Made by a program: the position numbers and the translations under genes. Source: Candidatus Geocrenenecus huangii (GTDB lineage Archaea > Thermoproteota > Nitrososphaeria_A > Caldarchaeales > Wolframiiraptoraceae). From it: a DNA stretch of 64,000 nucleotides. The stretch covers positions 1-64,000 of the forward strand of contig JALNKM010000003.1 of NCBI GenBank assembly GCA_023268155.1, read 5' to 3'. Shown in pieces: positions 13,414-29,918 of this stretch. The notes beneath the pieces were generated by a model, which saw only the letters and a list, made by a program, of their open reading frames with translations, was not told the DNA's origin and did not search any database. Within the stretch, counting starts at the first letter, position 1, and the number at the start of each line of letters is the position of its first letter.

Positions 13414-14090
13414 GTTCGTATTCCCAAAATTTTCTCTCTACCATCTAAGACCCTACGGGAGCCTATCTTAGTATAGGCGAAAGTTTCACATATTTTCTCG
13501 ACTAATATTTCCTTCACTGTCTCCATATCCACCTTCTTTCCTAGTAGTCTCTCCATAGACGTCATGATCTCCGGGCTTAACCCACATGGATTAATCAACT
13601 TGAAATATTCTAGGTTTGTGTTAACGTTTAACGCAAACCCATGGTAGGTTACCCACCATCTCAAAGCTAAACCTATAGATGCTATCTTTTTGCTTCCAAC
13701 CCATACTCCGGGATGACCAGCTACTCTACTGGCTTCGATGTTGAATTCCTTAAGAGTTGTTATCAATGCTTCTTCGATACTCCAGACGAAATCTTTTATA
13801 GAATTGTTGAAAAAGTTAAGGTCTACTATAAAGTATCCTACAAGCTGACCTGGACCATGATATGTTGCTTCCCCACCTCTTTCTACATGATATACCGGAA
13901 TACCTTTTATGTATTTATAGTGTTCCCTCATTCTTCTGCCAAGCGTGATTACGTGGGGATGTTCAAGTAGAAGCAACGTATCCGGGATCTTTCCTCCTAC
14001 TCTATCTTCAACGAGCGAAAGCTGTAGCTTATGAGCCGCCTCGTATTCTGTTAAGCCTAGATCTAATACTTGGAGTTCTTTCATGTTCAC
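13410..14090 (-). CDS. lipB: Octanoyltransferase LipB
   Basis: LipB transfers octanoyl from an acyl carrier to the lysine of lipoyl domains. The 226-residue protein carries RGGEATYHGPGQLVGY, GVWVGSKKIASIGLALRWW with the catalytic lysine, HGFALNVN, and NPCGL with the catalytic cysteine, all in the expected order. Length is normal. It overlaps lpdA by 4 nt upstream and the surface-protein gene by 4 nt downstream. Together with LipA it makes lipoate in situ; no lipoyl-domain protein (GcvH or E2) is in the window. Confidence 0.96.
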   Translation of the reverse strand: MNMKELQVLDLGLTEYEAAHKLQLSLVEDRVGGKIPDTLLLLEHPHVITLGRRMREHYKYIKGIPVYHVERGGEATYHGPGQLVGYFIVDLNFFNNSIKDFVWSIEEALITTLKEFNIEASRVAGHPGVWVGSKKIASIGLALRWWVTYHGFALNVNTNLEYFKLINPCGLSPEIMTSMERLLGKKVDMETVKEILVEKICETFAYTKIGSRRVLDGREKILGIRT

Positions 14091-15481: not shown

Positions 15482-15485
15482 TTTC

Positions 15486-16379
15486 TCAACCCGTCCTATC
15501 GGTATTCTTACTTAAGATGGCTCTTAGAAAATATTCTGCGGCTAGATAAGAACTTCTTACTAGGGGGCCTGAAGCAACGTACACGAACCCCAAGTTTTCC
15601 CCTATTCTTCTCAGTTCTTCGAATTTTTCTGGCGGAACATATTCCTTGACTGGTAGATGCCTTTTAGACGGTCTGAGATATTGTCCGATAGTGAAGAAAT
15701 CTACTTTGATTCTCCTTAAATCCATCATCGTTTGAATTACTTCTTCGATTGTTTCTCCTAAGCCTAGCATTAGAGAAGACTTTGTATAGATGTTAGGATC
15801 TAGCTCTTTCACAATCTTCAAAGTTCTGAGAGACTTATCGTATCCAGCTCTACTGTCTCTTATTAAGGGGGTCAGCCGCCTCACAGTTTCTACATTATGG
15901 CCTATTACGTCAGGTCCAGCCTCCACAACTGTCTTCAATGCTTTAACATCATTGTTGAAGTCAGGGATCAACACCTCTATTAAGGTGTCATCATTGATCT
16001 TCTTTATCTCTCTTATTGTTTCTGCGTATATTGATGCCCCCCCATCTTTTAAATCGTCCCTAGTTACAGAAGTTATAACGACATATTTCAAATCGAGTTC
16101 GGAGACTGCTTGAGCCACCCTCCTCGGTTCTTCTAAGTCTACGAAGCCTTTAGGGTTGCCAGATTTGACTGCGCAAAATCTACACGACCTGGTACACGTG
16201 TCTCCAAGTATCAAGATCGTCGCTGTTCGGCATCCCCAGCATTCAGATATGTTTGGGCATAAAGCCTCTTCACATACTGTATTTAGATTATACTTCTTCA
16301 TAATACTTCTTGTATGAGCATACCCTTCACTTGATGGAAGCTTTACTCTGATCCAACTAGGCTTAAGAGGGCCCGTCAT
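15486..16379 (-). CDS. lipA: Lipoyl synthase LipA
   Basis: LipA is a radical-SAM enzyme that inserts two sulfurs into octanoyl-protein. The 297-residue sequence has the auxiliary-cluster motif CEEALCPNISEC (Cx4Cx5C), the radical-SAM motif CTRSCRFC (Cx3Cx2C), and the C-terminal RSSY that ligates the auxiliary cluster. It is the first gene of the minus-strand unit lipA-lpdA-lipB-surface proteins, transcribed divergently from the por operon. Confidence 0.97.
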   Translation of the reverse strand: MTGPLKPSWIRVKLPSSEGYAHTRSIMKKYNLNTVCEEALCPNISECWGCRTATILILGDTCTRSCRFCAVKSGNPKGFVDLEEPRRVAQAVSELDLKYVVITSVTRDDLKDGGASIYAETIREIKKINDDTLIEVLIPDFNNDVKALKTVVEAGPDVIGHNVETVRRLTPLIRDSRAGYDKSLRTLKIVKELDPNIYTKSSLMLGLGETIEEVIQTMMDLRRIKVDFFTIGQYLRPSKRHLPVKEYVPPEKFEELRRIGENLGFVYVASGPLVRSSYLAAEYFLRAILSKNTDRTG

Positions 16380-16530
16380 CTACACTCGTATAGAAATTCC
16401 AAACTAAAAATTTTACAAGTCCTAACTCTTGGTAGGAAGACATCCTTGTAACGTCTTTATATTATATATAATCTCGGCATAGAGAATGGTTAAGAGACGA
16501 TTTATATAATTTTATTTGAGGTCGGCGTTA
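16380..16530. promoter_or_regulatory. Divergent promoter region between lipA and por
   Basis: An AT-rich palindromic block TTATATTATATATAAT lies at about 16458-16473. TTTATATAAT at 16501-16510 is well placed to drive the por operon, with a predicted start near 16530. The minus-strand lipA promoter must also be here; AAAATTTTTAGT-like sequence around 16402-16415 is a candidate. No clear operator repeat was seen. Confidence 0.5.
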
Positions 16531-17088
16531 TTGATCGAGATTAGATGGCATGGAAGAGGAGGTCAGGGAGTAGTAACAGTAAGCGATATCCTTGCCCGCT
16601 CCGCAGTGTTGGAAGGAAAGTATGCTCAGCATTTCCCAGAGTTTGGACCTGAGAGATCTGGTGCTCCTGTAAAAGCCTTTACAAGAATCTCCGACGAACC
16701 TATTGAGATACATTCAGGCATCTACAATCCGGACGTAGTAATTATTATAGACAGAGGGATGTCTCAGAGGTTCCAGCCATACATCGATGGATTAAAAGGA
16801 AATGGAATGGTATTCTTAAATCTAGGAGATGATGCCTCGCATATTGACAGGTCTACCCTTCCTCCGGCTGCGAAGGTATATACTGTTGATGCTAGAAAGA
16901 TCTCAGTTGAGGAAATTGGTAGACCAATATTCAATATCCCGATGTTGGGTGGTTTAGTTAGAGTATTAAAGATGCCTACCCTAAATATTGTCGAAGAAGT
17001 TTTGAGTGGAAGATTTTCAGGAGAATTAGTTGAGGCAAATATCAAAATACTGCGCAGAGCATATAATGAGGTGAAAAACCTTGGTTGA
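16531..17088 (+). CDS. porG: Pyruvate-type ferredoxin oxidoreductase, gamma subunit
   Basis: The gamma subunit of the four-subunit enzyme that converts 2-oxoacid plus CoA to acyl-CoA, CO2 and reduced ferredoxin. IRWHGRGGQGVVTVSDILA, FPEFGPERSGAPVKAF and IFNIPMLGGL are family signatures. The frame opens at TTG 16516, but TTG 16531 follows GAGGTC and coincides with the predicted transcription start, so it may be leaderless. The gene order gamma-delta-alpha-beta is the archaeal POR order, and the stop overlaps porD. Confidence 0.94.
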   Translation: MIEIRWHGRGGQGVVTVSDILARSAVLEGKYAQHFPEFGPERSGAPVKAFTRISDEPIEIHSGIYNPDVVIIIDRGMSQRFQPYIDGLKGNGMVFLNLGDDASHIDRSTLPPAAKVYTVDARKISVEEIGRPIFNIPMLGGLVRVLKMPTLNIVEEVLSGRFSGELVEANIKILRRAYNEVKNLG

Positions 17089-17383
17089 TATAGATGTCAA
17101 AAAGATAGTTGCAGGTGAGTTTTCATGGAAGACTTTACCTCCCGCCGGGATGATTGAGATCCCTACTTCCATAGAATACAAGACTGGAACTTGGAGAATA
17201 GAAAAACCAGTCATAGACCAATCTAAATGCACAAAGTGTCTTATCTGCTGGATATATTGCCCAGACATGTCTATCAAAAGAATGTTCGACGGGGGAGTAG
17301 AGGTCGATTATGAATTCTGCAAAGGATGTGGAATATGTGCTGAAGTCTGTCCGCAAAAAGCGATTAAGATGGTGGAAGAGTAG
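17081..17383 (+). CDS. porD: Pyruvate-type ferredoxin oxidoreductase, delta (ferredoxin) subunit
   Basis: A 100-residue subunit with two 4Fe-4S motifs, CTKCLICWIYCPD and CKGCGICAEVCP, that passes electrons from the TPP site to external ferredoxin. The start is TTG 17081, overlapping the porG stop by 8 nt. One nucleotide separates its stop from the porA ATG. Confidence 0.95.
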   Translation: MVDIDVKKIVAGEFSWKTLPPAGMIEIPTSIEYKTGTWRIEKPVIDQSKCTKCLICWIYCPDMSIKRMFDGGVEVDYEFCKGCGICAEVCPQKAIKMVEE

Positions 17384-17384
17384 C

Positions 17385-18581
17385 ATGAGCGAATTGAGAC
17401 CTTTGAGGAAGATGGCTTTAACGGGTGATGAAGCAGTAGCATATGCTGCAAAACAGGCTGACGTTGACGTCGTTGCAGCATACCCTATAACGCCACAGAC
17501 GATAATAGTCGAGAGGTTAAGCAGATATGTTGCAGACGGTGAATTAAATGCAGCGTTCATTCAAGCTGAAAGCGAGCATTCAGCTTTGTCGATCTGTATC
17601 GGTGCGGCACTAGCTGGTGCTAGGACTTTTACCTCGACTGCTAGTCAAGGATTAGCTTTGATGCATGAAGTTCTACATATCGCCTCTTCTATGCGTACAC
17701 CTATAGTCATGGCCATAGCTAACCGTGCACTCAATTCTCCTCTCAACATACATTGCGATCACTCGGATGTGATGAATGCTAGGGATACGGGTTGGATTCA
17801 CTTGTTTGCAAACAATGTACAGCAGGCATATGACCTAACTTTAATGGCGTTCAAGATAGCTGAAGACCCAGATCTCTTACTTCCAGTGTCAGTAAACATG
17901 GATGGGTTCATCTTAACTCATAGTGTAGAGCCTTTAGAGATACTAAGTGATGAAGAAGTACGACAGTATATTCCTCATATACCATATCCGTACAGAATAG
18001 ATTTTGACAGGCCATTGGCATACGGAGTTATGGCCCTCCCAGATACATATATGGAGTTTAGGAAACAACTTTTCGAGGTAACTAGGAAAGCTCCTCAAGT
18101 ATTCAGAAAAGCCTCGAACATTTTCTCAGCAATATCTGGAAGATCCTACGACTTGTTAACCCCGTATTTCGTTGAGGATGCCGATGTAATAGTGATAGCG
18201 CTAGGTTCAACGATCGAGACTCTAAGATACGCTGCTAGGAGATTTAGAGAGAGAAGACTGAAGATAGGTGTCGTCGGATTAACGATGTATAGACCCTTCC
18301 CCGAGAAAGAGATCGTAGATGTTCTAGAAAATGCTAGATGTATAGCGGTATTAGATAGAGCTTATTCGTATGGAGGTGTTGGAGGACCTCTATACACAGA
18401 CATACTTTCAACCCTCTACAAGAACCAGATCGGGGTTATGATTGCAGATTTCGTTTACGGGCTAGGTGGAAGAGATCTCAAGCTAACGGATATAGAACAA
18501 CTCTTCAATAAGCTGTTCAAATCTCTAGAAGTAGGTCGATTCGACCAAGACATATACTGGTGGGGAGTGAAAGATGATTAG
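17385..18581 (+). CDS. porA: Pyruvate-type ferredoxin oxidoreductase, alpha subunit
   Basis: The 398-residue alpha subunit carries AAYPITPQTIIVE, QAESEHSALS, STASQGLALMHE and IANRALNSPLNIHCDHSD, the substrate- and TPP-facing motifs of PorA. The frame extends upstream to 17310, but ATG 17385 directly after porD gives the family N terminus, so I use it. The substrate is most likely pyruvate; a branched-chain 2-oxoacid cannot be excluded from sequence. The last codons overlap a 42-codon ORF that fills the gap to porB. Confidence 0.95.
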   Translation: MSELRPLRKMALTGDEAVAYAAKQADVDVVAAYPITPQTIIVERLSRYVADGELNAAFIQAESEHSALSICIGAALAGARTFTSTASQGLALMHEVLHIASSMRTPIVMAIANRALNSPLNIHCDHSDVMNARDTGWIHLFANNVQQAYDLTLMAFKIAEDPDLLLPVSVNMDGFILTHSVEPLEILSDEEVRQYIPHIPYPYRIDFDRPLAYGVMALPDTYMEFRKQLFEVTRKAPQVFRKASNIFSAISGRSYDLLTPYFVEDADVIVIALGSTIETLRYAARRFRERRLKIGVVGLTMYRPFPEKEIVDVLENARCIAVLDRAYSYGGVGGPLYTDILSTLYKNQIGVMIADFVYGLGGRDLKLTDIEQLFNKLFKSLEVGRFDQDIYWWGVKDD

Positions 18582-18702
18582 AGATAGCTTTCAAGCTTTC
18601 CACATTTTACCAAAATCTTCATACATGTTTTCACTCAGCGGAACTGAGGTGGCTAACAATTCCTATTCGGCAAAGAAGACGACCAACGTGAGGAGGGTGT
18701 AG
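18574..18702 (+). CDS. Possible 42-residue ORF between porA and porB
   Basis: ATG 18574 lies inside the porA end, and the frame runs to a TAG at 18700-18702, one nucleotide before the porB start. The predicted peptide is polar, with a basic end (KKTTNVRRV), and has no recognised motif. The exact fit to an otherwise unexplained 122-nt gap in a compact operon suggests either a coupled small protein or simply a translated spacer that carries ribosomes to porB. The last codons form the porB Shine-Dalgarno sequence. Codon pattern is only weakly coding-like. Confidence 0.35.
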   Translation: MIRDSFQAFHILPKSSYMFSLSGTEVANNSYSAKKTTNVRRV

Positions 18703-18703
18703 A

Positions 18704-19651
18704 TTGGCGGCTCAGGAGAAATATTTTAAAACTATAAAAGACGTACCACTCGAGGATTACTTTACACCAGGGCATAGGTTGTGCGCGGGATGTGGTCCTT
18801 CTCTAGCCATGAAGCTTGCAATGAAAGCTGTCAGAATGCCTACAGCCATCGTCAATGCTACTGGATGCGTCGAAGTTTCCACATCCATGTTCCCTTACGT
18901 TAGCTGGAAGCTTCCATGGATACATGTTGCCTTCGAGAATACAGCCGCCGTCGCAAGCGGCATAACCGAGGCTTTTAGAATACTTGAGAAGAAGGGACGT
19001 GGAAGTATGCATGATGTAATAGCCATTGCTGGTGATGGGGGAACATTCGATATAGGGTTACAAGCACTATCAGGAGCTCTTGAAAGACGACATAAGATGT
19101 TATACATCTGTTATGATAACGAAGCCTACATGAATACTGGAATACAAAGATCTGGAGCGACACCCATGGGCGCGGCCACTACGACCAGCCCTGTTGGAAA
19201 AGTAATTTCGGGAAAGCAAGAAAGGAAGAAAGACTTGATCGGAATAGTTGTGGCCCACAAGGTACCCTATGCTGCAACAGCCTCGATATCTCATCCTCTC
19301 GATTTCATAAATAAGGTTAGGAAAGCTTTAGAGATAGAGGGTCCGACCTTCATACATGTCTTGACCCCGTGTACTCTTGGATGGAGATATCCACCTTCTC
19401 AAACTATAAAGATATCGAGGTTAGCTGTTGAGACAAGATACTTCCCGATATTCGAGCTAGAGTATGGTAAGCTGAAGATAAATATCAAAGTAAGTAAGCC
19501 TAGACCTCTAGAAGAATTCCTAGAAGCTCAAGGAAGATTCAAGCATCTCTTCGAACCAGCCAATAAAGATGTACTCGAGAATCTAAAGATGCAGGTAGAA
19601 GAAAACTGGAATAGACTTCTCAAGCTTGAAGAAATAGGGTTATACGCTTGA
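18704..19651 (+). CDS. porB: Pyruvate-type ferredoxin oxidoreductase, beta subunit
   Basis: The TPP-binding subunit, 315 residues. HRLCAGCGPSLAMKLAMKA supplies the cluster-ligating cysteines, GDGGTFDIGLQALSGA is the TPP/Mg site, and YDNEAYMNTGIQRSG is characteristic of PorB. The TTG start is preceded by AGGAGGG with 6-nt spacing, one of the clearest ribosome binding sites here and decisive for the start. It ends the por operon, convergent with the regulator gene. Confidence 0.96.
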   Translation: MAAQEKYFKTIKDVPLEDYFTPGHRLCAGCGPSLAMKLAMKAVRMPTAIVNATGCVEVSTSMFPYVSWKLPWIHVAFENTAAVASGITEAFRILEKKGRGSMHDVIAIAGDGGTFDIGLQALSGALERRHKMLYICYDNEAYMNTGIQRSGATPMGAATTTSPVGKVISGKQERKKDLIGIVVAHKVPYAATASISHPLDFINKVRKALEIEGPTFIHVLTPCTLGWRYPPSQTIKISRLAVETRYFPIFELEYGKLKINIKVSKPRPLEEFLEAQGRFKHLFEPANKDVLENLKMQVEENWNRLLKLEEIGLYA

Positions 19652-19680: not shown

Positions 19681-20667
19681 CTAAATTATTTTTATTCCTG
19701 TGGTCGCTTGAATTCTATGCAGTATTGAGCTGGTCAATCTATCTTCTAGCTTAGACCTTATAACATTTAAAGATACTAGAATATTGTTTATCCTTTTTAT
19801 GACTCTCTGCGGATACGGTATCGACCTGAATTCTATGTAGAGTTTCTCAAGGTCTCTCGATGTTAAAGTTCTATTGTAGAATGTATAGACGATCGCAGAT
19901 AGCTGATTCAAGCTAGACTTATAACATGCATCATGTGAAGAATAGTTATACAAACATTTACCGCAATTAGAGGCTAGAAGTTCCCTCATCGGCCCCCTGC
20001 TGCTGATCCTAACGTGTTTTACAACCCTGACATAGTTTTCTTTCTTCAATCTTGATAACGCTTTATATAATGTGCTAGTACTGACTCCTTCTCTGATGAT
20101 TCTTCTTGAGAGCTCCTCGACTGTTAAATCGCCATGAATACATAGACGATCAATTATTTTCTGTAGTAAGATAGGGGGTGTACTAGACATTTGCATGTCT
20201 AGTTTATTCGACAACGATTCTAGAAGATTATCATGACTTATCGTAATGTCTATGCCGAGCTTTGCTAAACCTTTCTCATACTCTATGTTAAACTCTTTCA
20301 TTAAGGTATGCTTGAGAGATTCTTGGTCCGAGGTTCTCATATAAGAATTTAGGAGAGCCCATAGAAGATATACTTCTTCATTCTTCCAAGACATTCTAAT
20401 AATCCATGAGAACTTGATCAAAGCATCAATCATACTCAATCTCTCGATAACGAATACATCTTCTCTGAGCTTCTTCACGTAATTCTTATTATTTGATAAT
20501 AACCTATTAAGTACCTGGATGCTTTTTTCATTCCAAGCTACGATTACTAAGTCTTGTCCATCAGGCTCCTCAACTATTGTGAATGGTGGATAGTTAATGA
20601 ATACTTCTTCGACAAATTCGTTAGGCGTGAATTCCTTTACTAGTTGGAGTAGGTCGCCGTTTATCAT
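19681..20667 (-). CDS. Winged-helix regulator with a Cys/His cluster
   Basis: The 328-residue protein has an uncharacterised N-terminal half, then a helix-turn-helix region at about residues 165-220 (TVEELSRRIIREGVSTSTLY, then KALSRLKKENYVRVVKHVR). Immediately after this comes SNCGKCLYNYSSHDAC, a C-x2-C-x6-H-x2-C arrangement that could bind zinc or an iron-sulfur cluster. I do not recognise the family. It lies between the por and kor operons and diverges from korD across 89 bp holding a direct repeat, so it is the obvious candidate regulator of kor-hdr-etf and of itself. A redox- or metal-sensing role is inference. Confidence 0.65.
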   Translation of the reverse strand: MINGDLLQLVKEFTPNEFVEEVFINYPPFTIVEEPDGQDLVIVAWNEKSIQVLNRLLSNNKNYVKKLREDVFVIERLSMIDALIKFSWIIRMSWKNEEVYLLWALLNSYMRTSDQESLKHTLMKEFNIEYEKGLAKLGIDITISHDNLLESLSNKLDMQMSSTPPILLQKIIDRLCIHGDLTVEELSRRIIREGVSTSTLYKALSRLKKENYVRVVKHVRISSRGPMRELLASNCGKCLYNYSSHDACYKSSLNQLSAIVYTFYNRTLTSRDLEKLYIEFRSIPYPQRVIKRINNILVSLNVIRSKLEDRLTSSILHRIQATTGIKII

Positions 20668-20756
20668 CTAGAAAATATTGGATTTTCGCAAATATTAGAT
20701 TTTCCTTAAATAAACCCTGACTCAAACTATTACCGTAAATACCTGGTGGGTTCAAC
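20668..20756. promoter_or_regulatory. Divergent kor/regulator promoter with tandem operator-like repeat
   Basis: Two direct copies of AAATATTRGATTTTCS occur at 20673-20688 and 20690-20705, a 17-bp period. The element CCTTAAATAAAC at 20704-20715 can serve as a TATA box for korD (start near 20735) and, read in reverse, for the regulator (start near 20680). The repeats would then cover the regulator's start site and abut the kor TATA box, a layout expected for autoregulation and control of kor. The repeat is seen directly; binding is inference. Confidence 0.6.
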
Positions 20757-21041
20757 ATGTCTTTAAAGATTATTAGAGAACCCATAAATAAATATATACA
20801 AAAAATCCCCCTTGGACTTATCCACGTTATCCCTGAAAGATGTAAAGAATGTGGTTACTGTATCGACTTATGCCCTAAAGATGTTTTAACCGTGAGCGAG
20901 GAAAGAAACATAAAAGGTTACCGATGGCCAAAAATAGCAGACGGTAAGGCATCTGAATGTATTGCTTGTAGAATGTGTGAATGGATATGCCCTGAATTTG
21001 CCATATTCGTTGTAGAAGCTGATAGGAGGGAGTACGAGTAA
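20757..21041 (+). CDS. korD: 2-oxoglutarate-type ferredoxin oxidoreductase, delta (ferredoxin) subunit
   Basis: A 94-residue ferredoxin-like subunit with two 4Fe-4S motifs, CKECGYCIDLCP and CIACRMCEWICP. It is the first gene of the eight-gene plus-strand unit. Its stop and the korA ATG share one base (TAATG), indicating coupling. The delta-alpha-beta-gamma order is typical of KOR rather than POR. Confidence 0.92.
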   Translation: MSLKIIREPINKYIQKIPLGLIHVIPERCKECGYCIDLCPKDVLTVSEERNIKGYRWPKIADGKASECIACRMCEWICPEFAIFVVEADRREYE

Positions 21042-22186
21042 TGTCTAGTGAACTCCGATTACTTAAGCCAGGAACATATTTCATGATGGGGAATATAGCT
21101 TGTGCTGAAGCAGCATTAATAGCTGGATGTGAATTCTATGCAGGCTACCCTATAACCCCATCAAATGAGATTGCTGAACATATGAGTAGAAGGATGCCTC
21201 AGCTTGGGAGACACTTCATTCAGATGGAAGATGAGATAGGGAGTATCGTAGCTGTATTAGGTGCTTCCGCCGCAGGCGTGAAAGCTATGACGGCAACTTC
21301 CGGACCTGGATTCTCACTCATGATGGAGACGATAGGTTTATCTGCGATGCTTGAGCTCCCGTGCGTTATAATTGATGTGCAGAGAGCTGGCCCAAGCACA
21401 GGCATCCCAACCTTTGTAGGTCAAGGAGACGTAATGCAAGCAAGATGGGGGTCTCACGGAGACTATGAATTGGTAGTCTACGCTCCATCAGCTGTTCAAG
21501 AATTCTTCGATCTCACAATTGAAGCATTCAACACATCTGAGTGGTTACGGATACCCGTGGTAGTATTGTCCGATGAAGTGGTAGGTCACATGTACGGGAG
21601 ACTAGTAGTTCCGGAATACGATAAGATTAAGATCGTGAACAGAAAACGATACAATGGTCCCAAAGACCAATACCTACCTTATAGTTGTGAAGCCCTTGTC
21701 CCACCTTTTGTAGCAGCTGGAGATGGATATAGAATACACATGACCGGATTAACTCACGATGAAAGAGGTTATCCCTCTCTAGAGATTGAGGATTCTCATA
21801 AACTAATTGATAGGCTCGTCATGAAAGTTAGAAAGAATTCTAAGCATCTATGGAAGTATGAGACCCTATATGCAGATGATGCAGACGTCGTCGTTGTAAC
21901 CTTCGGTATCACTGCGAGGTCTACTGAAGAGGCTGTAAAAAGAGCTAGGGCCGAAGGCCTGAAAGTCGGCATGATAAAGCTGCTCACCCTTTGGCCCTTC
22001 CCAGAAGATCCAGTCAAGATCGCGAGCCAGTATGCTAGAAGACTGCTCGTCGCAGAAATCAACATGGGTCAATTAATCCATCCGGTAAGAGAAGTAGCAG
22101 AATGCCCTGTAGCAGGAATAAATTATCCAGTAGGGTACGCACCCCCACCCGAGTATATTCTAGATGGTATCAGAGCGGCGGTGTAG
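21041..22186 (+). CDS. korA: 2-oxoglutarate-type ferredoxin oxidoreductase, alpha subunit
   Basis: This 381-residue subunit has GYPITPSNEIAEHMS, QMEDEIGSI, ATSGPGFSLMMETIG and QRAGPSTGIPTFVGQGD, the last being the KorA signature. The enzyme oxidises a 2-oxoacid, most likely 2-oxoglutarate, to acyl-CoA with reduction of ferredoxin; another 2-oxoacid is possible. It is clearly distinct from the PorA in the operon upstream. A 5-nt gap separates it from korB. Confidence 0.93.
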   Translation: MSSELRLLKPGTYFMMGNIACAEAALIAGCEFYAGYPITPSNEIAEHMSRRMPQLGRHFIQMEDEIGSIVAVLGASAAGVKAMTATSGPGFSLMMETIGLSAMLELPCVIIDVQRAGPSTGIPTFVGQGDVMQARWGSHGDYELVVYAPSAVQEFFDLTIEAFNTSEWLRIPVVVLSDEVVGHMYGRLVVPEYDKIKIVNRKRYNGPKDQYLPYSCEALVPPFVAAGDGYRIHMTGLTHDERGYPSLEIEDSHKLIDRLVMKVRKNSKHLWKYETLYADDADVVVVTFGITARSTEEAVKRARAEGLKVGMIKLLTLWPFPEDPVKIASQYARRLLVAEINMGQLIHPVREVAECPVAGINYPVGYAPPPEYILDGIRAAV

Positions 22187-22191
22187 AGTGT

Positions 22192-23058
22192 ATGAGTCAG
22201 AAAGGGTTGGTAATTAAGGAAAAAATCGTCAGTGAGTCTCCAAGAGATCACTTGATAAGGAAGGAGAGATTCCCACATATATGGTGTCCTGGATGCGGTC
22301 TCGGAACAGTATTGAAATGCTACGTAGAGGCAATAGCTGCATCAAGTATCCCGGAAGATAAACATGTAGTTATATCAGGCATAGGTTGCACTGGAAGAAT
22401 AGCTGGTTACGTCAGATTGGATTCATACCATGTAACACATGGAAGACCTATCGCTTTCGCTGAAGGAATGAAGATAGTTAGACCAGACCTCGAGGTAACG
22501 GTAATATCCGGAGATGGAGACTTAGTAACTATTGGCGGAAACCACTTTATCCACGCTATCAGGAGAAACGTGGACATAAATGTCTTCCTAGTCAACAACT
22601 TCATCTACGGTATGACTGGAAACCAGATGGGTTCAACTACTCCATTAGGTGCCAAAAGCTCCACGAGCCCATACGGTTGTCCAGAACCTCCATTCAACCT
22701 ACCTTTGCTTGCAGCAGCCCTAGGAGCCCCCTTTGTAGCAAGATGGACTACACTCCATACTAGGCAACTTGCAGAGGCTATGAAGAAAGCATTCCAAGTT
22801 AAAGGATTCGCATTAATCGAGATAATATCTCCATGCCCAGTAGGGTTCGGATCATATAATGAATTAAGAGAGGGAAAAGATTACATAAAGCTTTTCCTAG
22901 AGAATTGCATAGTTGATCATTCAGCCGATTTAAACAAGGCGGCCATATCGTTGAGGCCAGGTGAACCAATTATCCTTGGAAACTTCATTCAACGAGAAAT
23001 GCCCAGTTATCATGACTTTGAACTAGAAGTCTTCAAGAAGGCAGGGTGGTTAAAGTGA
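22192..23058 (+). CDS. korB: 2-oxoglutarate-type ferredoxin oxidoreductase, beta subunit
   Basis: The TPP subunit, 288 residues from ATG 22192; the frame is open back to 22102 inside korA but that extension has no family character. FPHIWCPGCGLGTVLKCYVE, SGIGCTGRIAGYV and SGDGDLVTIGGNHFIHA (TPP/Mg) are KorB motifs, followed by NFIYGMTGNQMGSTTP. It overlaps korC by 13 nt. Confidence 0.94.
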   Translation: MSQKGLVIKEKIVSESPRDHLIRKERFPHIWCPGCGLGTVLKCYVEAIAASSIPEDKHVVISGIGCTGRIAGYVRLDSYHVTHGRPIAFAEGMKIVRPDLEVTVISGDGDLVTIGGNHFIHAIRRNVDINVFLVNNFIYGMTGNQMGSTTPLGAKSSTSPYGCPEPPFNLPLLAAALGAPFVARWTTLHTRQLAEAMKKAFQVKGFALIEIISPCPVGFGSYNELREGKDYIKLFLENCIVDHSADLNKAAISLRPGEPIILGNFIQREMPSYHDFELEVFKKAGWLK

Positions 23059-23588
23059 GATGGGATATAAGGTGGGCGGGTTTCGGAGGTCAAGGAGTAA
23101 TTAGAGCAGGAGAAATCCTAGGTAGAGCCGCTGTTAAGCAAGGACTTGATTCCGCTATGAGACCAATGTATGGACCAGAGAAGACTGGGGGATGGTCTAG
23201 AGCAGATGTAGTTATTTCAGATGAACAAATTATCTTCCCCCTAATAGTCAATCCCGATATTCTTGTCGCGATGTCTCAAGACGGGATGAATAGAGATGGC
23301 TCATCACTAAAGAAAGACGGTCTACTCTTGATAGATGGAGAATTGGTAAAAGACGTCAAATGCTATCCTAAGAAGATATACTCTGTAGAAGCCACGAAGA
23401 TAGCGGACAGTCTAGGTAGAAGAATAGTTGCGAATATTGTAATGCTCGGTGCATTCTCTAAAGCGTTCGGGATCGTTAGCGAGGATATCTTATTACAGAC
23501 AATTATCGAGACCTTCCCCAAAGCGGTTGAATTGAATAAGACAGCATTCAAGCTCGGTAAAGAGAATGTAAGGGAGGTGGAGATATAG
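23046..23588 (+). CDS. korC: 2-oxoglutarate-type ferredoxin oxidoreductase, gamma subunit
   Basis: A 180-residue gamma subunit with WAGFGGQGVIRAGEILG, YGPEKTGGWSRADVVIS and IVANIVMLGAF. The GTG start is inside korB and the stop is followed directly by the hdrA ATG with no spacer. The absence of a gap argues that the Hdr-like gene belongs to the same functional unit as the oxidoreductase. Confidence 0.93.
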   Translation: MVKVRWDIRWAGFGGQGVIRAGEILGRAAVKQGLDSAMRPMYGPEKTGGWSRADVVISDEQIIFPLIVNPDILVAMSQDGMNRDGSSLKKDGLLLIDGELVKDVKCYPKKIYSVEATKIADSLGRRIVANIVMLGAFSKAFGIVSEDILLQTIIETFPKAVELNKTAFKLGKENVREVEI

Positions 23589-26500
23589 ATGTCCGATGAA
23601 GTATTAGTTATAGGCGGAGGAATAGCTGGAATACAATGTTCACTCGACCTAGCCAACGCAGGTGTAAAAGTGGTATTGGTTGAGAAGACCCCTACAATTG
23701 GAGGAAAGATGGCGATACTTGACAAGAACTTCCCGACACTTGATTGCTCGATATGCATAGAGGCGCCGAAGATGAGCGAGGTAGGAAAACATCCAAACAT
23801 CGAGCTGCTGACCCTTGCGGAAGTTGTAAGCGTTGAGAAAAATGGGGAAGACTACTTAGTCGAGATATATCAAAAGCCTAGATACGTAACATCTGAATGT
23901 AGTAGATGCGGCCTCTGCGTAGATGCTTGCCCAGTCCTGCTCAAAAACGAATTTGACTATGGCATGGCTGCTAGAAAAGCAATCTATACACCGATTCCCC
24001 AATCTGAGCCGGGGGCATACGTAATAGATATCGAGAATTGTCTAAACAAGCCTCCCAACTACCTCCCCTGCGACAGATGCATACAGGTATGCGGGCCTAA
24101 GTGCATAGATTTCTTCATGAAACCCAAGATAATAAAGAAGAAAGTTAAAGCGATAATCGTCGCAGCAGGATTCGAAGTATTCGACGCGACCGGGATACCC
24201 GACTATTCATACGGTCTCCATCCAGATATACTCAGCTCGATGGAATACGAGAGACTACTTCAGTCGACCGGTCCAAGCGGTGGAGAAATAATCAAACCTA
24301 GCAATGGACATCATCCTGAAAACATATTATTCGTCCTATGTGTAGGTTCTAGAGACCCAAGATACAACAAGTATTGCTCAAGGTTCTGCTGCATGTATAC
24401 CATTAAGCAAGCTGTCCAGACAGTTGAACATGGGATAAAGAATGTGGATATACTGTACATGGATATCAGAGCGTATGGCAAAGGCTTCGACGGATTTTAC
24501 AAGAGAGCAAAAGATGAAGGCGTAAGATTCATAAAAGGAAGAGCTGCTAGAGTAATCCCTTACGAAAATAAGCTGAAAGTCAGGTATGAAAATATAGCTG
24601 AAGGAAGAATAGAAGAAAGAGAATACGACATGGTTGTTCTAGCGGCGGCCGCCGAACCACCGGCAGGACTGGTTGAGCTGGCGAAAACTCTCGGAATAGA
24701 ACTAGATGAAGATGGATTCATAAAGACGAGGCCGTGGCGTGGTAAAATGATAGCTACAACTAGAGAGGGAATCTTTGTATGTGGAAGCGCATCCGGTCCA
24801 AAGGATATTGCGGACAGCGTGACAGAGGCCGGAGCAGCAGCATCCGCTGCCCTAGAATATGTTAAGAAGAAGACTTGGCCTAAGCGAGAATTCGAAGAAA
24901 CAATTCCCGCTGAGGGAGAACATAGAGTGGGGGTATTCATCTGTCACTGTGGATCGAATATTGCGGGAGTAGCAGACGTTAAGTGGCTAGCGCAGGAATC
25001 CGCGAAGATCCCTGGGGTAGTACATTCCGAAGATCTCAGATTTGCATGCGCGGGAGTCTACACAAAATATATTGAGCAGGTGATTAGGGAGAAGAACATC
25101 AACAGGCTTGTGGTGGCAGCGTGTTCTCCGAGGACGCATCTGCCTGTATTCATGGATGCAGCTATAAGAGCCGGTTTAAATCCATACCTGGTCGAGCTAA
25201 CGAATATACGTAACTTAGATACTTGGGTTCACGCAAATTATCCGAAAGAAGCAACCGAGAAGGCTCTAGATATGATTAGGATGTCTGTAGCTAAAGCTAA
25301 GCTGCTTAAGCCTCTATATGTTGTTAAGCTCCCGGTAACTAGAAGAGCCTTAGTGATCGGTGGAGGAGTAGCGGGGATGGCTGCAGCAGCTAGCCTTGCT
25401 CGCCAAGGCTTTGAAACATATCTTGTAGAGAAGGAGAACCAGCTAGGCGGCCTCGTAAGACATCTTGACGTTATAGCTCCCGAGGGGATAAGAGCTGATG
25501 AATTATTAAACGAGATGGAGAGAGAAGTATACAGTTCAGGTGTAAAGGTCATATTAGGAGCCAAGGTGGAATCTGTAGGCGGATACATTGGAAACTTCGT
25601 TGTAAACCTGTCTAGTGGAGAGAAACTTGAGGTTGGAGCAATCATCATGGCTACGGGTGCGAAAGTATACCATCCGGAGGGAGCCCTCCAGGCAAATGGA
25701 GGAAACATAATAACCTCACTTGACCTAGAGCAGATATTCAAGAATAATGGTAACCTTGATGGGAGAAACGTCGTCTTCATAAGCTGTGTAGGGTCAAGAT
25801 ACGATTCGAAAGGCTGCTCTAGGTTCTGCTGCCAAGTAATGATAAAACAAGCAATCAGACTTAAAGAGCTGGGTAAGAACGTATTCGTACTCTATAAGGA
25901 TATCAGGACATACAGTCGGAAGGCTGAAGAATTATACGAGAAAGCAAGAGCGCTCGGAGTAAGATTCGTAAAATACGACTCTGAGAGGAAACCCGAAGAA
26001 GTAGTTAGAATTGAGAATGGGACAGTATACGTTAAAGATGAATTGCTCGGAGAAGAAATCGGTATACCAGCCGACCTAGTAGTACTAAATGTCGGGCTCG
26101 TCCCAAATGATGAGATAAATCCAATAATTGAACAGCTGAAGCTATCAAGAGACGAGGCGGGCTTCCTCCTCGAGCTCCATCCAAAGCTTGGACCGGTTGA
26201 GTCAATGGTTGGAGGGGTATTCCTCGCTGGGACATCCCAGAACCCGAAAGATGTCAGAGAAGCAATATCGCAGGGATTGGCGGCGGCCGCAAAGGCCGCA
26301 GCATTGCTAGCAAAAGACACTATCGATAAAGAACCCCTTATACCGAGGATAAACTATGATAAATGTACATACTGTCAAAGATGTACTCAGGTATGCACTT
26401 TCTCAGCTCTGAGGGGAGAACTGAAGAAGAGCCTTGAAATAATCAGTGCTTTATGTCAGGGATGCGGAAACTGTTCAGCTGAATGCATGGTTGGAGCGAT

Positions 26501-26996
26501 CGAGGCTCCTGGATTCACCGATGAACAGATCATTACACAGATCGATGCGGCCCTAGAAGATAGACCGAACGAGAAGGCAATAGTGTTTACATGTAACTGG
26601 TGCTCGTATGCTGGTGCAGACCAAGCAGGTATAGAAAAGCTCCAGTACCCGCCAAGCTCAAGGGTAATTAGAACGATGTGTTCGGCCAGAATTTCGCAGA
26701 AATTCATCTTGAGGGCGTTTGAGAAGGGTGCGGCGGTAGTAGCTGTTACAGGATGTTGGCCGCAGGACTGTCACTACAATTACGCTAACCTGAATACTGA
26801 GAGGAGAGTCAAACAAGTGAAGAAGATACTCGAGGCTAGAGGAATTAATCCTGAGAGGTTGATACTACATTGGAATAGCGCAGCTGAGAGTAAGAGATGG
26901 GCCGCAAAGATGAGGGAGATCGACGAGCTGATAAAGAAGATTCCAAAAGAAGAGATAGTCCAGACTGTACAGAAGCTTGGAGGTGGGAAGAAGTGA
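23589..26996 (+). CDS. hdrA: Giant HdrA-type flavoprotein: QmoA-like + HdrA + ferredoxin + MvhD fusion
   Basis: The 1135-residue protein joins several modules. Residues 1-440 are a QmoA-like FAD unit: VLVIGGGIAGIQ, LDCSICIEAPKM, an inserted CSRCGLCVDACP cluster motif and YCSRFCC. Residues about 447-570 match the HdrA N-terminal domain (VGVFICHCGSNIAGV, VVAACSPRTH). From about 585 follows the HdrA FAD domain (ALVIGGGVAGMAAA, later GCSRFCC). Residues 926-975 are a two-cluster ferredoxin (CTYCQRCTQVC, CQGCGNCSAEC). From about 995 comes an MvhD/FlpD-like domain (FTCNWCSYAGADQ, TGCWPQDCHY). HdrA bifurcates or confurcates electrons at FAD. The fused MvhD part would dock a partner, here probably HdrD or Etf. 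Confidence 0.93.
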   Translation: MSDEVLVIGGGIAGIQCSLDLANAGVKVVLVEKTPTIGGKMAILDKNFPTLDCSICIEAPKMSEVGKHPNIELLTLAEVVSVEKNGEDYLVEIYQKPRYVTSECSRCGLCVDACPVLLKNEFDYGMAARKAIYTPIPQSEPGAYVIDIENCLNKPPNYLPCDRCIQVCGPKCIDFFMKPKIIKKKVKAIIVAAGFEVFDATGIPDYSYGLHPDILSSMEYERLLQSTGPSGGEIIKPSNGHHPENILFVLCVGSRDPRYNKYCSRFCCMYTIKQAVQTVEHGIKNVDILYMDIRAYGKGFDGFYKRAKDEGVRFIKGRAARVIPYENKLKVRYENIAEGRIEEREYDMVVLAAAAEPPAGLVELAKTLGIELDEDGFIKTRPWRGKMIATTREGIFVCGSASGPKDIADSVTEAGAAASAALEYVKKKTWPKREFEETIPAEGEHRVGVFICHCGSNIAGVADVKWLAQESAKIPGVVHSEDLRFACAGVYTKYIEQVIREKNINRLVVAACSPRTHLPVFMDAAIRAGLNPYLVELTNIRNLDTWVHANYPKEATEKALDMIRMSVAKAKLLKPLYVVKLPVTRRALVIGGGVAGMAAAASLARQGFETYLVEKENQLGGLVRHLDVIAPEGIRADELLNEMEREVYSSGVKVILGAKVESVGGYIGNFVVNLSSGEKLEVGAIIMATGAKVYHPEGALQANGGNIITSLDLEQIFKNNGNLDGRNVVFISCVGSRYDSKGCSRFCCQVMIKQAIRLKELGKNVFVLYKDIRTYSRKAEELYEKARALGVRFVKYDSERKPEEVVRIENGTVYVKDELLGEEIGIPADLVVLNVGLVPNDEINPIIEQLKLSRDEAGFLLELHPKLGPVESMVGGVFLAGTSQNPKDVREAISQGLAAAAKAAALLAKDTIDKEPLIPRINYDKCTYCQRCTQVCTFSALRGELKKSLEIISALCQGCGNCSAECMVGAIEAPGFTDEQIITQIDAALEDRPNEKAIVFTCNWCSYAGADQAGIEKLQYPPSSRVIRTMCSARISQKFILRAFEKGAAVVAVTGCWPQDCHYNYANLNTERRVKQVKKILEARGINPERLILHWNSAAESKRWAAKMREIDELIKKIPKEEIVQTVQKLGGGKK

Positions 26997-28150
26997 TTAA
27001 TACAAAAATCGTAGATATAGAGCTAATGGAGAAACTTGCTGAACTGACTTCTAGAGCAGCTGACTACTGTTATCAATGTGGAACGTGCACCGGCTCATGC
27101 CCACTCAACCTACTAAACCCAGAGTCAATCAATCCTAGAAGGATTGTTAGATCCGCCCAACTTGGACTAGTCTACGATGATGGAAATCTATGGCATTGCT
27201 CGACCTGCGGCCTCTGCGAGGCGAAGTGTCCATGGTCCATAAAGATCCCAGATGTAGTTAGAGCATATAGACAGATATCATCAGAGAAGAGAAAGATCCC
27301 ACAAAAATTCGAGGAGATACTGTGGATGGTATATGAGGACGGTACAGCTTTCCCAGGCTCAAGTATGGAGAGAGCAGCATGGACGGAAGGACTAAACATA
27401 AGAGATGCATCAAAACAAAAAGTCCAAGTATTACTATACGTTGGGTGCGCTGTCTCGTTTGACAAGAGGTTACAGAAGGTGGCCGCATCACTCGCTAAAG
27501 TTCTATCTACCGCAGGAGTAGATTTCGGAGTACTGGGTAGACAGGAACGATGTTGTGGAGATGTTGTATACAACATCGGTGAAGACGCATTCCTGGAAGA
27601 GCTTGCATCTCAGAATATAGAGAGATTCAATAAGACGGGGGCTGAAGCCATTATCACGATCTCGCCTCATTCTGCACACATGTTTAAGAAAGTCTATCCC
27701 AGGTATGGATTAAAGATACCGGCATATCACTACGTAGAGTTCCTGAATGACTTGATAGAAAAAGGAAAGATCAGAATGTCTAAACCCTTAGACCATGAAG
27801 TGACAGTTCATGACCCATGCTATCTTGGGAGATACCTTAAGCTATATGAAGAGCCGAGAAAGATCCTGTCAAGTATCCCTGGGACAAAGATTATCGAGAT
27901 GAACGATATCAAAGAGAATGCAATATGTTGTGGGAGTGGTGGCGGAAGACACTTCCTAGATATACATGGCGAAAGACTTTCCCACTATAGGGTTGCGCAA
28001 GCCGCCCAAACAGGTGCGAAAACATTGGTAGCACCATGCCCATTCTGCATTCAGAACTTTGAAGACAGTGTGAAGACTAAGAAACTAGGATTATATGTTA
28101 GAGACGTAGTAGAATTGGTTGACCAATCATTGAATGGTGAGGTTAGATGA
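26993..28150 (+). CDS. hdrD: HdrD-like iron-sulfur subunit (HdrC-HdrB fusion)
   Basis: This 385-residue protein has an HdrC-like N terminus with two 4Fe-4S motifs, CYQCGTCTGSCP and CSTCGLCEAKCP, and an HdrB-like C terminus with two CCG domains: YVGCAV with ERCCGD, and HDPCYLGRY with AICCGSGGG, then PCPFCIQNF. CCG domains hold the noncubane clusters that reduce disulfides in HdrB/HdrD; relatives also relay electrons between Etf and quinones or other acceptors. The GTG start overlaps the hdrA stop as GTGA and follows GGAGGTGGG. Its acceptor here is unknown. Confidence 0.92.
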   Translation: MINTKIVDIELMEKLAELTSRAADYCYQCGTCTGSCPLNLLNPESINPRRIVRSAQLGLVYDDGNLWHCSTCGLCEAKCPWSIKIPDVVRAYRQISSEKRKIPQKFEEILWMVYEDGTAFPGSSMERAAWTEGLNIRDASKQKVQVLLYVGCAVSFDKRLQKVAASLAKVLSTAGVDFGVLGRQERCCGDVVYNIGEDAFLEELASQNIERFNKTGAEAIITISPHSAHMFKKVYPRYGLKIPAYHYVEFLNDLIEKGKIRMSKPLDHEVTVHDPCYLGRYLKLYEEPRKILSSIPGTKIIEMNDIKENAICCGSGGGRHFLDIHGERLSHYRVAQAAQTGAKTLVAPCPFCIQNFEDSVKTKKLGLYVRDVVELVDQSLNGEVR

Positions 28151-29130
28151 GCCAAGAATACAGAGGAGTATGGGTTTTCCTCGAGAGACGTGGGGATGAA
28201 GTGATCGAGCCTTCATTAGAAGTCCTCGGGAAGGCTCGTGAATTAGCAGATAGGTATGGAGACAATGTTGCTGGAGTATTGATGGGGGCAAAAAATCTCG
28301 AGATCCAAGCGGAGACAGCGATAAAATATGGAGCCGACGTAGTGTACATAGTAGAAGACCCCCTACTAGAAGATTACTCTACTATACCTTACTCTGAAGC
28401 ATTATCTAGACTGGTTAAGAAGTATAAACCGAACATCATGCTTTATCCCGCCACTAGGAATGGTAGAGACCTGGCTGGTAGAATATCAGCGAAACTAGGC
28501 CTAGGTCTATCAGCCAACACCGTATGGCTCGACATAGTCGGCGACGGCGTACTACTTGCAGGTGTTCCAGGATTTGGAGGAGGAATAATGGCTGTCACGA
28601 AGTGTTTGACTAAGCCTCAAATGTCCACTGTGAGACCTGGAGCATTCTCCAAGCCTCGGCTAAACCCTATGAGGGAGGGTAGGATAGAGAAAGTAGATGT
28701 TGGCAAGCTTCCGGATCCTCCAACCAAGACCATTGAAAAAGTGTTCTTTACAGTTGAAGATATTAGTAAAGCGGAAGCAATAGTGATCGCAGGAATAGGT
28801 GTCAGGGAAAATATAGAAGCAGTCAAGAAGCTTTCAGAAAAAATGAATTGGGCCTTCGGAGCTACTAGACCTCTATCAGATGAAGGACTAGTGCCTAGAG
28901 ACATATTCGTTGGAGCAACGGGCAAAGTAGTTAAACCCAAAATTGCATTAATAGTTGGAGCAAGCGGTGCAGCCCACTTCATATCCGGTGTTGCAGGAGC
29001 AGAAAAGATAATCTCCATAAATATTGACCCAGAAGCACCCATCCACTCATACTCAGATTACTCTGTAGTTGGAGATGCATACAAGATTATTCCCAAGCTA
29101 TTACAGAGGCTGGAGGCTGAGAGGAGATGA
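28147..29130 (+). CDS. etfA: Electron transfer flavoprotein alpha subunit
   Basis: The 327-residue protein has an N-terminal Etf domain (VWVFLERRGDEV) and the C-terminal FAD domain with ATRPLSDEGLVP, GATGKVVKPKIALIVGASGA and INIDPEAPIHSYSDYSVVGD, all diagnostic of EtfA. It holds the FAD that shuttles electrons to the partner oxidoreductase. ATGA overlaps link it to hdrD upstream and etfB downstream. Confidence 0.96.
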   Translation: MSQEYRGVWVFLERRGDEVIEPSLEVLGKARELADRYGDNVAGVLMGAKNLEIQAETAIKYGADVVYIVEDPLLEDYSTIPYSEALSRLVKKYKPNIMLYPATRNGRDLAGRISAKLGLGLSANTVWLDIVGDGVLLAGVPGFGGGIMAVTKCLTKPQMSTVRPGAFSKPRLNPMREGRIEKVDVGKLPDPPTKTIEKVFFTVEDISKAEAIVIAGIGVRENIEAVKKLSEKMNWAFGATRPLSDEGLVPRDIFVGATGKVVKPKIALIVGASGAAHFISGVAGAEKIISINIDPEAPIHSYSDYSVVGDAYKIIPKLLQRLEAERR

Positions 29131-29918
29131 TGCATATAGTAGTCTGCATGAAAGTGACCCCTAAATCTGAGCAAGTAAAACTGGATCCGAACACTAAGAC
29201 GATAATCAGAGAAGGCGTAGAAAATGAAATAAATCCGGCTGATAAGAACGCTCTAGAAGCGGCTCTCCAACTAAAAGACAAGCATGGCTGTAAAGTAACA
29301 GTGATAGGTATGGGGCCCCCGATGTGGGAGCCGTACATGAAGCTAGCCGTAACAATGGGAGCTGACGACGCTATACTCATTTCTGACAGAGCATTCGCGG
29401 GAGCTGACACTCTTGCCACGAGTAGAACACTCGCCGCAGCTATCAAGAAGCTGGGAGAGTATGACTTGATACTATGTGGAGAAGAATCTAGCGATGCTGG
29501 AACAGGCCATGTACCTCCAAGCATAGCTGAATTCCTCAACATACCTCAGATAACCTTTGTAAACAATATCGAGATAATAGAGGGGAAAATTAGAGCTAAA
29601 AGAGTCCTAGAAGGTGGGTATGAAGTGCTGGAATGCGCTCCTCCAGTCCTACTCTCCGTCGAGTATGGATGCAATACTCCCAGGTTCCCTGATTTTAGAA
29701 GGAAGAGATGGGTGGATAAAGAATTTAAATTAAAGATCTGGAGCATAGGAGAACTCCAGTTAAGTAACGAAGAAGTAGGCTTGAAGGGTAGCAGAAGCAT
29801 AGTAGAGGAACTTAGAGAAATGAAGTTAGGTGAGAGGGCTAGGCAGAAGATATCTGGAACGGAAGATGAAATAGTGGAACAAATACTAAATATAATCCGC
29901 CCGTACATCAAGAAGTAG
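29127..29918 (+). CDS. etfB: Electron transfer flavoprotein beta subunit
   Basis: A 263-residue EtfB with VVCMKVTPKSEQVKLD, NEINPADKNALEAALQLKD and SDRAFAGADTLATSRTL. The last segment resembles the nucleotide-binding loop of EtfB proteins that bind a second FAD and bifurcate electrons, rather than the AMP loop of conventional ETFs; this is inference from the motif. It ends the compact kor-hdr-etf unit. No FixC/FixX or acyl-CoA dehydrogenase gene is adjacent. Confidence 0.95.
   Translation: MMHIVVCMKVTPKSEQVKLDPNTKTIIREGVENEINPADKNALEAALQLKDKHGCKVTVIGMGPPMWEPYMKLAVTMGADDAILISDRAFAGADTLATSRTLAAAIKKLGEYDLILCGEESSDAGTGHVPPSIAEFLNIPQITFVNNIEIIEGKIRAKRVLEGGYEVLECAPPVLLSVEYGCNTPRFPDFRRKRWVDKEFKLKIWSIGELQLSNEEVGLKGSRSIVEELREMKLGERARQKISGTEDEIVEQILNIIRPYIKK

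Follow-up and report, generated by a model that had tools for sequence, protein, structure and literature searches.

A conserved kor-hdrA-hdrD-etf gene block of archaea and bacteria that probably encodes one electron-handling machine

The elements of the system considered here are known separately: bifurcation of electrons by HdrA, the occurrence of 2-oxoacid:acceptor oxidoreductase (Kor) with heterodisulfide reductase (Hdr) subunits in Endoriftia, and CCG-domain proteins encoded with electron-transferring flavoproteins (Etf) in Desulfobacterium autotrophicum and mycobacteria. The nearest published case is the Hdr-Flx-KorABCD set of Endoriftia, the Riftia symbiont, where a four-subunit Kor lies inside an Hdr set and bifurcation by HdrA with direct delivery to OGOR has been proposed (PMC11636981). 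In D. autotrophicum the CCG protein HdrF3 is clustered with etfAB and was proposed as an acceptor of beta-oxidation electrons (PMC2702500). Here we analyzed a window of 64,000 nucleotides (nt) from “Candidatus Geocrenenecus huangii,” a hot-spring archaeon of the family Wolframiiraptoraceae in the Caldarchaeales (Aigarchaeota) (contig JALNKM010000003.1, positions 1 to 64,000), in which eight genes in the order korDABC-hdrA-hdrD-etfAB occupy positions 20757-29918 of the + strand. The probable product of the block is a single electron-handling machine in which the oxidation of acids derived from amino acids is joined to dehydrogenases of the fatty-acid type.

Conservation of the eight-gene block

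Pfam and NCBIfam profiles assigned all eight proteins, and 8/8 open reading frames lie at the coordinates in Table 1. The junctions from korD to etfB measure -1, +5, -13, 0, -4, -4, and -4 nt, with korB taken from the ATG at 22192, which upholds the gaps of at most 5 nt described in an earlier, sequence-only reading of this DNA. Tandem overlap of genes is by itself weak evidence for a functional unit, and relatives were surveyed by searching the surroundings of their HdrA orthologs (at least 52% identity) with the window genes in tblastn. Such orthologs were found in 36 genomes of four phyla, represented by Caldarchaeales, a Thermoplasmatota-like archaeal phylum, Dehalococcoidia, and Elusimicrobia, and every one of them (36/36) sits inside the identical block, with the same gene order throughout. 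All eight genes were on the stretch in 27 of the 36 (in one of these with etfB cut at the contig end), the others being interrupted by contig ends or masked bases. The kor half without the hdr-etf half, or the reverse, occurred in 0/36 genomes with an HdrA ortholog, a negative outcome for frequent separation of the halves in relatives. Because gene order is identical in 36 genomes of four phyla, this conservation is far beyond chance: korDABC-hdrA-hdrD-etfAB is a real, travelling unit, and the claim that kor, hdrA, hdrD, and etf form a single module is borne out. The same survey shows that the module is not confined to this archaeon, the block being spread over four phyla. The association of Kor with Hdr has its precedent in Endoriftia (PMC11636981), which leaves the Etf/EtfD half and the fusion architecture as what is new.

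Within the class, 10 of 44 genomes carry an HdrA ortholog, including 5/5 of the genus, a second genus in the family, and two other families in the order; tblastn recovered the full korDABC-hdrA-hdrD-etfAB around each of these 10 loci, and the HdrA proteins of the named relatives are 87-93% identical to that of the window. A wider scan of 84,980 species genomes also recovered the block from records of Dehalococcoidia, Elusimicrobia, and Thermoplasmatota/Euryarchaeota, and was the sole source of a further Thermoplasmatota record (L072). Sampling by group gave 15/393 genomes of the Dehalococcoidia class, 8/390 in the phylum of G066, and 2/295 in the phylum of G062; the genome counts are lower bounds, because the scan relied on two peptide patterns.

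Pairwise distances among the eight proteins are correlated at 0.83-0.95 over 27 members. With strong support, the HdrA tree joins the Caldarchaeales to part of the Thermoplasmatota-like set and the Elusimicrobia to the Dehalococcoidia, and it therefore fits transfer of the whole block. HdrA-like proteins of at most 46% identity are located elsewhere, and because MvhD is a separate gene in those that were looked at, fusion of MvhD to HdrA marks the module.

Residues of HdrA, the HdrD-like protein, and EtfAB

In the scheme of PMC12054007, two-flavin proteins are type II and a fused MvhD is seen in type Ia; the window HdrA, having two flavins, is of type II, but its MvhD is fused as in type Ia. 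Its score exceeds the HdrA2 cut-off. Two residues with a role in HdrA bifurcation, E356 and K409 (PMC12054007), correspond to E221 and K273 in the first flavin adenine dinucleotide (FAD) domain, FAD1, and are invariant (34/34); FAD2 has Lys at the corresponding position in only 6/34, which makes FAD2 unlikely as a second bifurcation site. One bifurcating flavin is thus predicted, and the earlier proposal that HdrA splits or merges electrons at FAD finds the known bifurcation residues in place in FAD1. Nearly all Cys ligands of the Fe-S clusters (ferredoxin insert, C-terminal ferredoxin domain, and the Cys beside FAD) are invariant across the four phyla, C172 being the main exception (25/34). 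In three Dehalococcoidia loci (L067, L069, and L070), TGA stands in frame at the invariant Cys56 of HdrA (DCSI-U-IE) and the frame is otherwise open; judged by these reading frames, the module HdrA of these three appears to be a selenoprotein, with TGA read as selenocysteine.

From sequence and model, the protein annotated as HdrD is better described as a soluble protein related to EtfD (Etf:menaquinone oxidoreductase). Its structure model (predicted local distance difference test score 92.8) has its best fold match in Mycobacterium smegmatis EtfD (9OJN; E 3e-25, template modeling score 0.85), with HdrB and HdrC matches at E 6e-7 or worse. In EtfD, cluster D2 is a non-catalytic wire fed by Etf; its ligands are five Cys and the His of a C-P-H-C motif, His583 (PMC13083937). 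These ligands are kept as C276, C312, C313, C349, C352, and H226, each in 33/33 proteins except C352 (32/33 and one gap). The N-terminal CxxC is replaced by S224-P-H226-[C/S/T] in 33/33, and the equivalent of Cys581, a ligand of the linear [3Fe-4S] cluster D1, is Ser in all 33, so cluster D1 must be altered or absent; FadF and DgcB, which are likewise Etf partners, also do without D1 (PMC13083937). The protein does not have the paired CxxC motifs of an HdrB-type subunit with two catalytic noncubane clusters. No transmembrane segment was found in it: the top 19-residue hydropathy is 1.46, and soluble domains cover all 385 amino acids (aa). The noncubane cluster has a His ligand that is specific to EtfD and does not vary within the module, which disfavors reduction of a disulfide, and the earlier idea that HdrD reduces a disulfide or lipid carrier loses its footing with H226 fixed, the CxxC lost, and the best fold that of EtfD.

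The His appears to accompany Etf, since sister Kor-Hdr loci without Etf (L075-L079 and L155) have C-P-E-C at the motif position; the exception, a protein of L154, carries SPHT and has no Etf within 8 kb of it. The sister arrangement, kor-hdrA-hdrD lacking Etf, was seen at L075-L079, L093, L094, L097, L100, L108, L154, and L155, its HdrD mostly with C-P-E-C rather than S-P-H-C and a second hdrA in the place of etfAB at some loci (L154, L155). Bacterial loci of this kind belong to Syntrophaceae, Desulfarculus, Anaerolineales, and an actinobacterium, and others are archaeal.

EtfA and EtfB both score highest against the five solved bifurcating Etfs, EtfA with 235-306 bits compared with 114-139 for full-length non-bifurcating ones. 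In LctC, R205 contacts N5 of the beta-FAD and the R205A exchange abolishes coupling (PMC9232219). The corresponding position in module EtfA (V140) is Val in 32/33 and Asn in 1/33, and the alpha-FAD His is replaced by Phe (F278 in the window) in 32/32 readable rows. EtfAB would therefore be a relay in which bifurcation is not expected; loss of the N5-contacting Arg leads us to reject Etf as a second bifurcation site. The beta-FAD motif DGDTAQVGP of EtfB is largely retained (D122 30/30, T125 27/30, Q127 26/30, V128 27/30, P130 23/30; D124 lost), as is mostly the NAD-site R/K-x-F-x-G, so binding of FAD at the beta site and of NAD(H) is possible. EtfA R241, the equivalent of R243 through which the Clostridioides difficile Etf contacts its dehydrogenase, is invariant. 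The other host EtfA (contig C17) has Arg at the R205 position; a 705-aa CCG protein is encoded about 4 kb from that other EtfAB pair (L051, G000 contig C17). That contig also carries a gene for an acyl-CoA dehydrogenase, and the CCG protein is probably the host's EtfD/EMO-like route for beta-oxidation.

Proposed electron path, alternatives, and flanking genes

Acyl-CoA dehydrogenase was found in 10/10 module-bearing Caldarchaeales genomes versus 28/51 without the module (p 0.009 by Fisher's test, with no correction for relatedness), and 6/6 of the distant genomes with the module also have it. At a single locus from Dehalococcoidia (L149), genes for CoA-transferase III, enoyl-CoA hydratase, acyl-CoA dehydrogenase, and a further enoyl-CoA hydratase lead into korD, ending about 235 nt before it, and in three Caldarchaeales loci (L044-L046), acetoacetyl-CoA ligase, acyl-CoA dehydrogenase, and thiolase genes lie divergently upstream of the module. 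Module genomes have 3 to 6 POR_N matches each, that is, several 2-oxoacid oxidoreductases. The absence of hydrogenase and acyl-CoA dehydrogenase noted earlier stands for the operon and fails for the genome, since three matches to the acyl-CoA dehydrogenase N-domain occur in the host assembly, along with [NiFe]-hydrogenase large-subunit matches on two contigs. On the host genome, split hdrA genes followed by those for MvhD and a [NiFe]-hydrogenase large subunit (L049 and G000:C16:9716-15789) make up a separate system of the Mvh-Hdr type.

From the conserved gene unit, its residues, folds, and neighborhoods we infer a physical complex, an electron path, a partner, and a direction. The eight genes would form one soluble three-way electron junction, with Kor and Etf meeting at one HdrA flavin, a proposal that we judge evenly poised between right and wrong. 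KorDABC would exchange low-potential electrons with a 2-oxoacid/acyl-CoA couple, and the exchange by EtfAB would take place close to the acyl-CoA/enoyl-CoA potential, with acyl-CoA dehydrogenases whose genes lie elsewhere (adjacent in some relatives). The EtfD-like protein would act as a wire from the Etf alpha-FAD through the His-capped noncubane cluster (D2) and two cubane clusters to HdrA, whose FAD1 would be the single flavin joining low- and high-potential electrons, while the HdrA ferredoxin domains would lead from FAD1 to KorD and KorAB. A two-electron carrier of mid potential, in the simplest case NAD(P)(H), would be used or made at FAD1 or via FAD2 and MvhD. The direction that we favor is oxidative and confurcating, drawing on 2-oxoacid oxidation and acyl-CoA dehydrogenation, because of the beta-oxidation neighbors and the 1:1 sequence of these steps in branched-chain amino-acid breakdown. 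The label “confurcating” claims more than the genes tell, however, as direction is not given by sequence and both directions are compatible with it.

Several points weigh against this junction. Operon conservation does not prove a single complex. With potentials of about -500 mV for the 2-oxoacid and about -10 mV for the acyl-CoA couple, the mean is about -255 mV and that of NAD about -320 mV; confurcation onto NAD+ is thus slightly uphill under standard conditions, and the reverse direction is viable. Acyl-CoA dehydrogenase genes adjoin the module in a minority of loci only, and the link to them rests on that minority, because no neighbor conserved beside the module across all phyla was found. 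Other EtfAB pairs exist in the host genome. A mid-potential partner (Mvh/hydrogenase, Fdh/FdhA, Frh/FrhB, or Flx) is absent from the eight operon genes, and four module genomes, which are metagenome-assembled, have neither [NiFe]-hydrogenase nor FrhB/FdhB; allowing for their incompleteness, H2 or F420 is not the general third partner.

The alternative that survives best keeps the complex and reverses it: NAD(P)H or another mid-potential donor would be bifurcated at FAD1 for carboxylation of succinyl-CoA or another acyl-CoA by Kor and reduction of enoyl-CoA via the EtfD-like protein and Etf. Standard potentials favor this direction if the partner is NADH. KorA belongs to the OGOR-type alpha-subunit family, and in the Endoriftia model Hdr-Flx with KorABCD passes NADH electrons to OGOR in the reductive tricarboxylic acid (TCA) cycle (PMC11636981). 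Since the neighboring genes are of the beta-oxidation type, most hosts are of heterotroph-like lineages, and no further reductive TCA gene was seen adjoining the module, we regard reversal as unlikely, though a serious contender. Also unlikely is that Kor and HdrA-EtfD-Etf are separate, co-regulated enzymes linked by free ferredoxin with no direct channel; operons often group the enzymes of a pathway, and the ferredoxin-type clusters of KorD could let free ferredoxin connect the parts, but the fixed order over two domains, the correlated distances, and the loss of neither half alone argue for a closer union. A third possibility, which we consider improbable, makes Etf a port for NAD(H) instead of acyl-CoA dehydrogenases, with NADH handled at the beta-FAD without bifurcation and coupling left to HdrA. 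Most of the beta-FAD motif residues D, T, Q, V, and P and of those at the NAD site are retained, and the R205A variant of Ldh-Etf retains NADH:dichlorophenolindophenol activity (PMC9232219), yet D124 is lost, R241 at the dehydrogenase contact is invariant, and EtfD-type partners are normally fed by the Etf alpha-FAD after an acyl-CoA dehydrogenase (PMC13083937). A classic heterodisulfide or protein-disulfide reductase, in which disulfide reduction at HdrD draws on Kor ferredoxin and a mid-potential donor, with Etf as a side input, is very improbable: HdrA does pass the HdrA2 cut-off, and lipB, lpdA, and lipA upstream of the adjacent por genes make a lipoyl disulfide conceivable in the host genus, but the N-terminal CxxC is gone from 33/33 proteins, H226 marks a non-catalytic EtfD site, the best fold is EtfD rather than HdrB, and outside the genus the module has no lipoyl genes close by, for which reason we reject the lipoyl substrate.

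If the three-way junction is correct, anaerobes could re-oxidize (or load) Etf without a membrane by pairing it with the electrons of lowest potential in the cell, and acyl-CoA/Etf would join the partners that HdrA can couple. The module bears on how fermenting archaea and syntroph-like Chloroflexota handle electrons from acyl-CoA dehydrogenases, a question that it opens to direct testing through a single bifurcation flavin (K273), a single wire residue (H226), and three defined inputs.

The gene divergent from korD adjoins the module in 9/10 Caldarchaeales loci, with identity down to 25%, the contig ending at the tenth; no Pfam family matched it, and its position and Cys pattern suggest that it may be the regulator of the module. 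A scan for bacterial-type promoters and terminators gave matches no more frequent than in shuffled sequence. Beyond the divergent gene, the lipoyl genes and the pyruvate-type oxidoreductase set adjoin the module within the genus only, and the 789-aa protein next to them is genus-conserved in that position. Downstream, tmk is the closest gene, starting 44 nt past etfB, and is not adjacent to the module outside the genus. One Dehalococcoidia genome encodes a protein with two nitrite/sulfite reductase domains downstream of the module (L147, 12081-13622).

Table 1. Module genes, flanking features, and HdrA domains (window positions in nt; domain positions in aa)
Feature	Position	Strand	Description
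789-aa protein	11044-13413	-	No Pfam or NCBIfam match; beside lipoyl genes
lipB, lpdA, lipA and second 2-oxoacid oxidoreductase set	13410-19651	-	Lipoyl genes (to which the strand refers) beside complete gamma, delta, alpha, beta set; pyruvate-type
Divergent gene	19681-20667	-	Winged-helix-like center, invariant C-x2-C-x(11)-C; candidate redox-sensing regulator
Intergenic region	20668-20756		AT-rich, divergent; TATA-like TTAAATAA about 50 nt ahead of korD; candidate promoter, by reading the sequence
korD	20757-21041	+	Delta subunit, 2x[4Fe-4S] ferredoxin-type; Fer4; best match OorD/OGOR_delta
korA	21041-22186	+	2-Oxoacid:acceptor oxidoreductase alpha subunit; NF006412 above cut-off
korB	22192-23058	+	Beta (thiamine pyrophosphate) subunit; start at ATG 22192
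korC	23046-23588	+	Gamma subunit; PorC_KorC above cut-off
hdrA	23589-26996	+	1135 aa
HdrA FAD1	aa 1-430		With inserted 2x[4Fe-4S]
HdrA N-terminal domain	aa 443-615
HdrA FAD2	aa 585-910
HdrA ferredoxin domain	aa 920-972		2x[4Fe-4S]
HdrA MvhD	aa 998-1118		Fused
hdrD-like	26993-28150	+	385 aa; HdrC-type 2x[4Fe-4S] and two CCG domains
etfA	28147-29130	+	Etf alpha subunit
etfB	29127-29918	+	Etf beta subunit

Relation to known systems

With the methanogen complexes HdrABC-MvhADG and HdrA2B2C2 (5ODC; PMC5296606; PMC12054007, types Ia and II), the module shares the FAD domain of E356 and K409, the Fe-S inserts, and MvhD, which is fused in HdrA2. It differs in having two FAD domains and MvhD in one chain, no hydrogenase or F420 partner in the operon, and a CCG partner of the EtfD rather than the HdrB type. 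Mycobacterial EtfD (9OJN; PMC13083937) and the EtfD/FadF/DgcB-type partners have in common with the window protein the best-matching fold, the noncubane site with its extra His, and adjacent Etf genes, whereas the window protein has no membrane or heme domain, is short of a ligand at its D1 site (S224), and is proposed to be wired to HdrA instead of menaquinone. The bifurcating Etfs CarCDE (6FAH), Bcd-Etf (5OL2), EtfABCX (7KOE), and Ldh-Etf (7QH2) are the closest solved relatives of EtfAB by profile, set apart by the change from Arg to Val at N5 of the beta-FAD and from the usual His to Phe at the alpha-FAD. HdrF3 of D. autotrophicum is a membrane protein, and its cluster is without HdrA and Kor (PMC2702500).

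The Endoriftia set belongs to a reductive TCA operon, includes Flx (NADH dehydrogenase) and HdrBC, with the kor genes placed between those for HdrA and HdrBC, and is described with no mention of Etf or an EtfD-like protein (PMC11636981), whereas the window module has no flx among its eight genes, which run in the order kor-hdrA-hdrD-etf. No description of kor, hdrA, and etf together was found in the literature searched, which comprised openly licensed papers. We propose only tentatively that the module represents a new class of flavin-based coupling complex. In it, the disulfide/HdrB arm of the HdrA machine would have given way to Etf and a wire of the EtfD type, 2-oxoacid oxidation and acyl-CoA dehydrogenation, successive steps of branched-chain amino-acid breakdown, would be confurcated within one assembly, and the eight genes would have passed between archaea and bacteria as one unit. 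Set beside these described systems, what is apparently new is the combination of genes, the two-flavin HdrA-MvhD fusion, and the exchange of an EtfD-type protein for HdrB.

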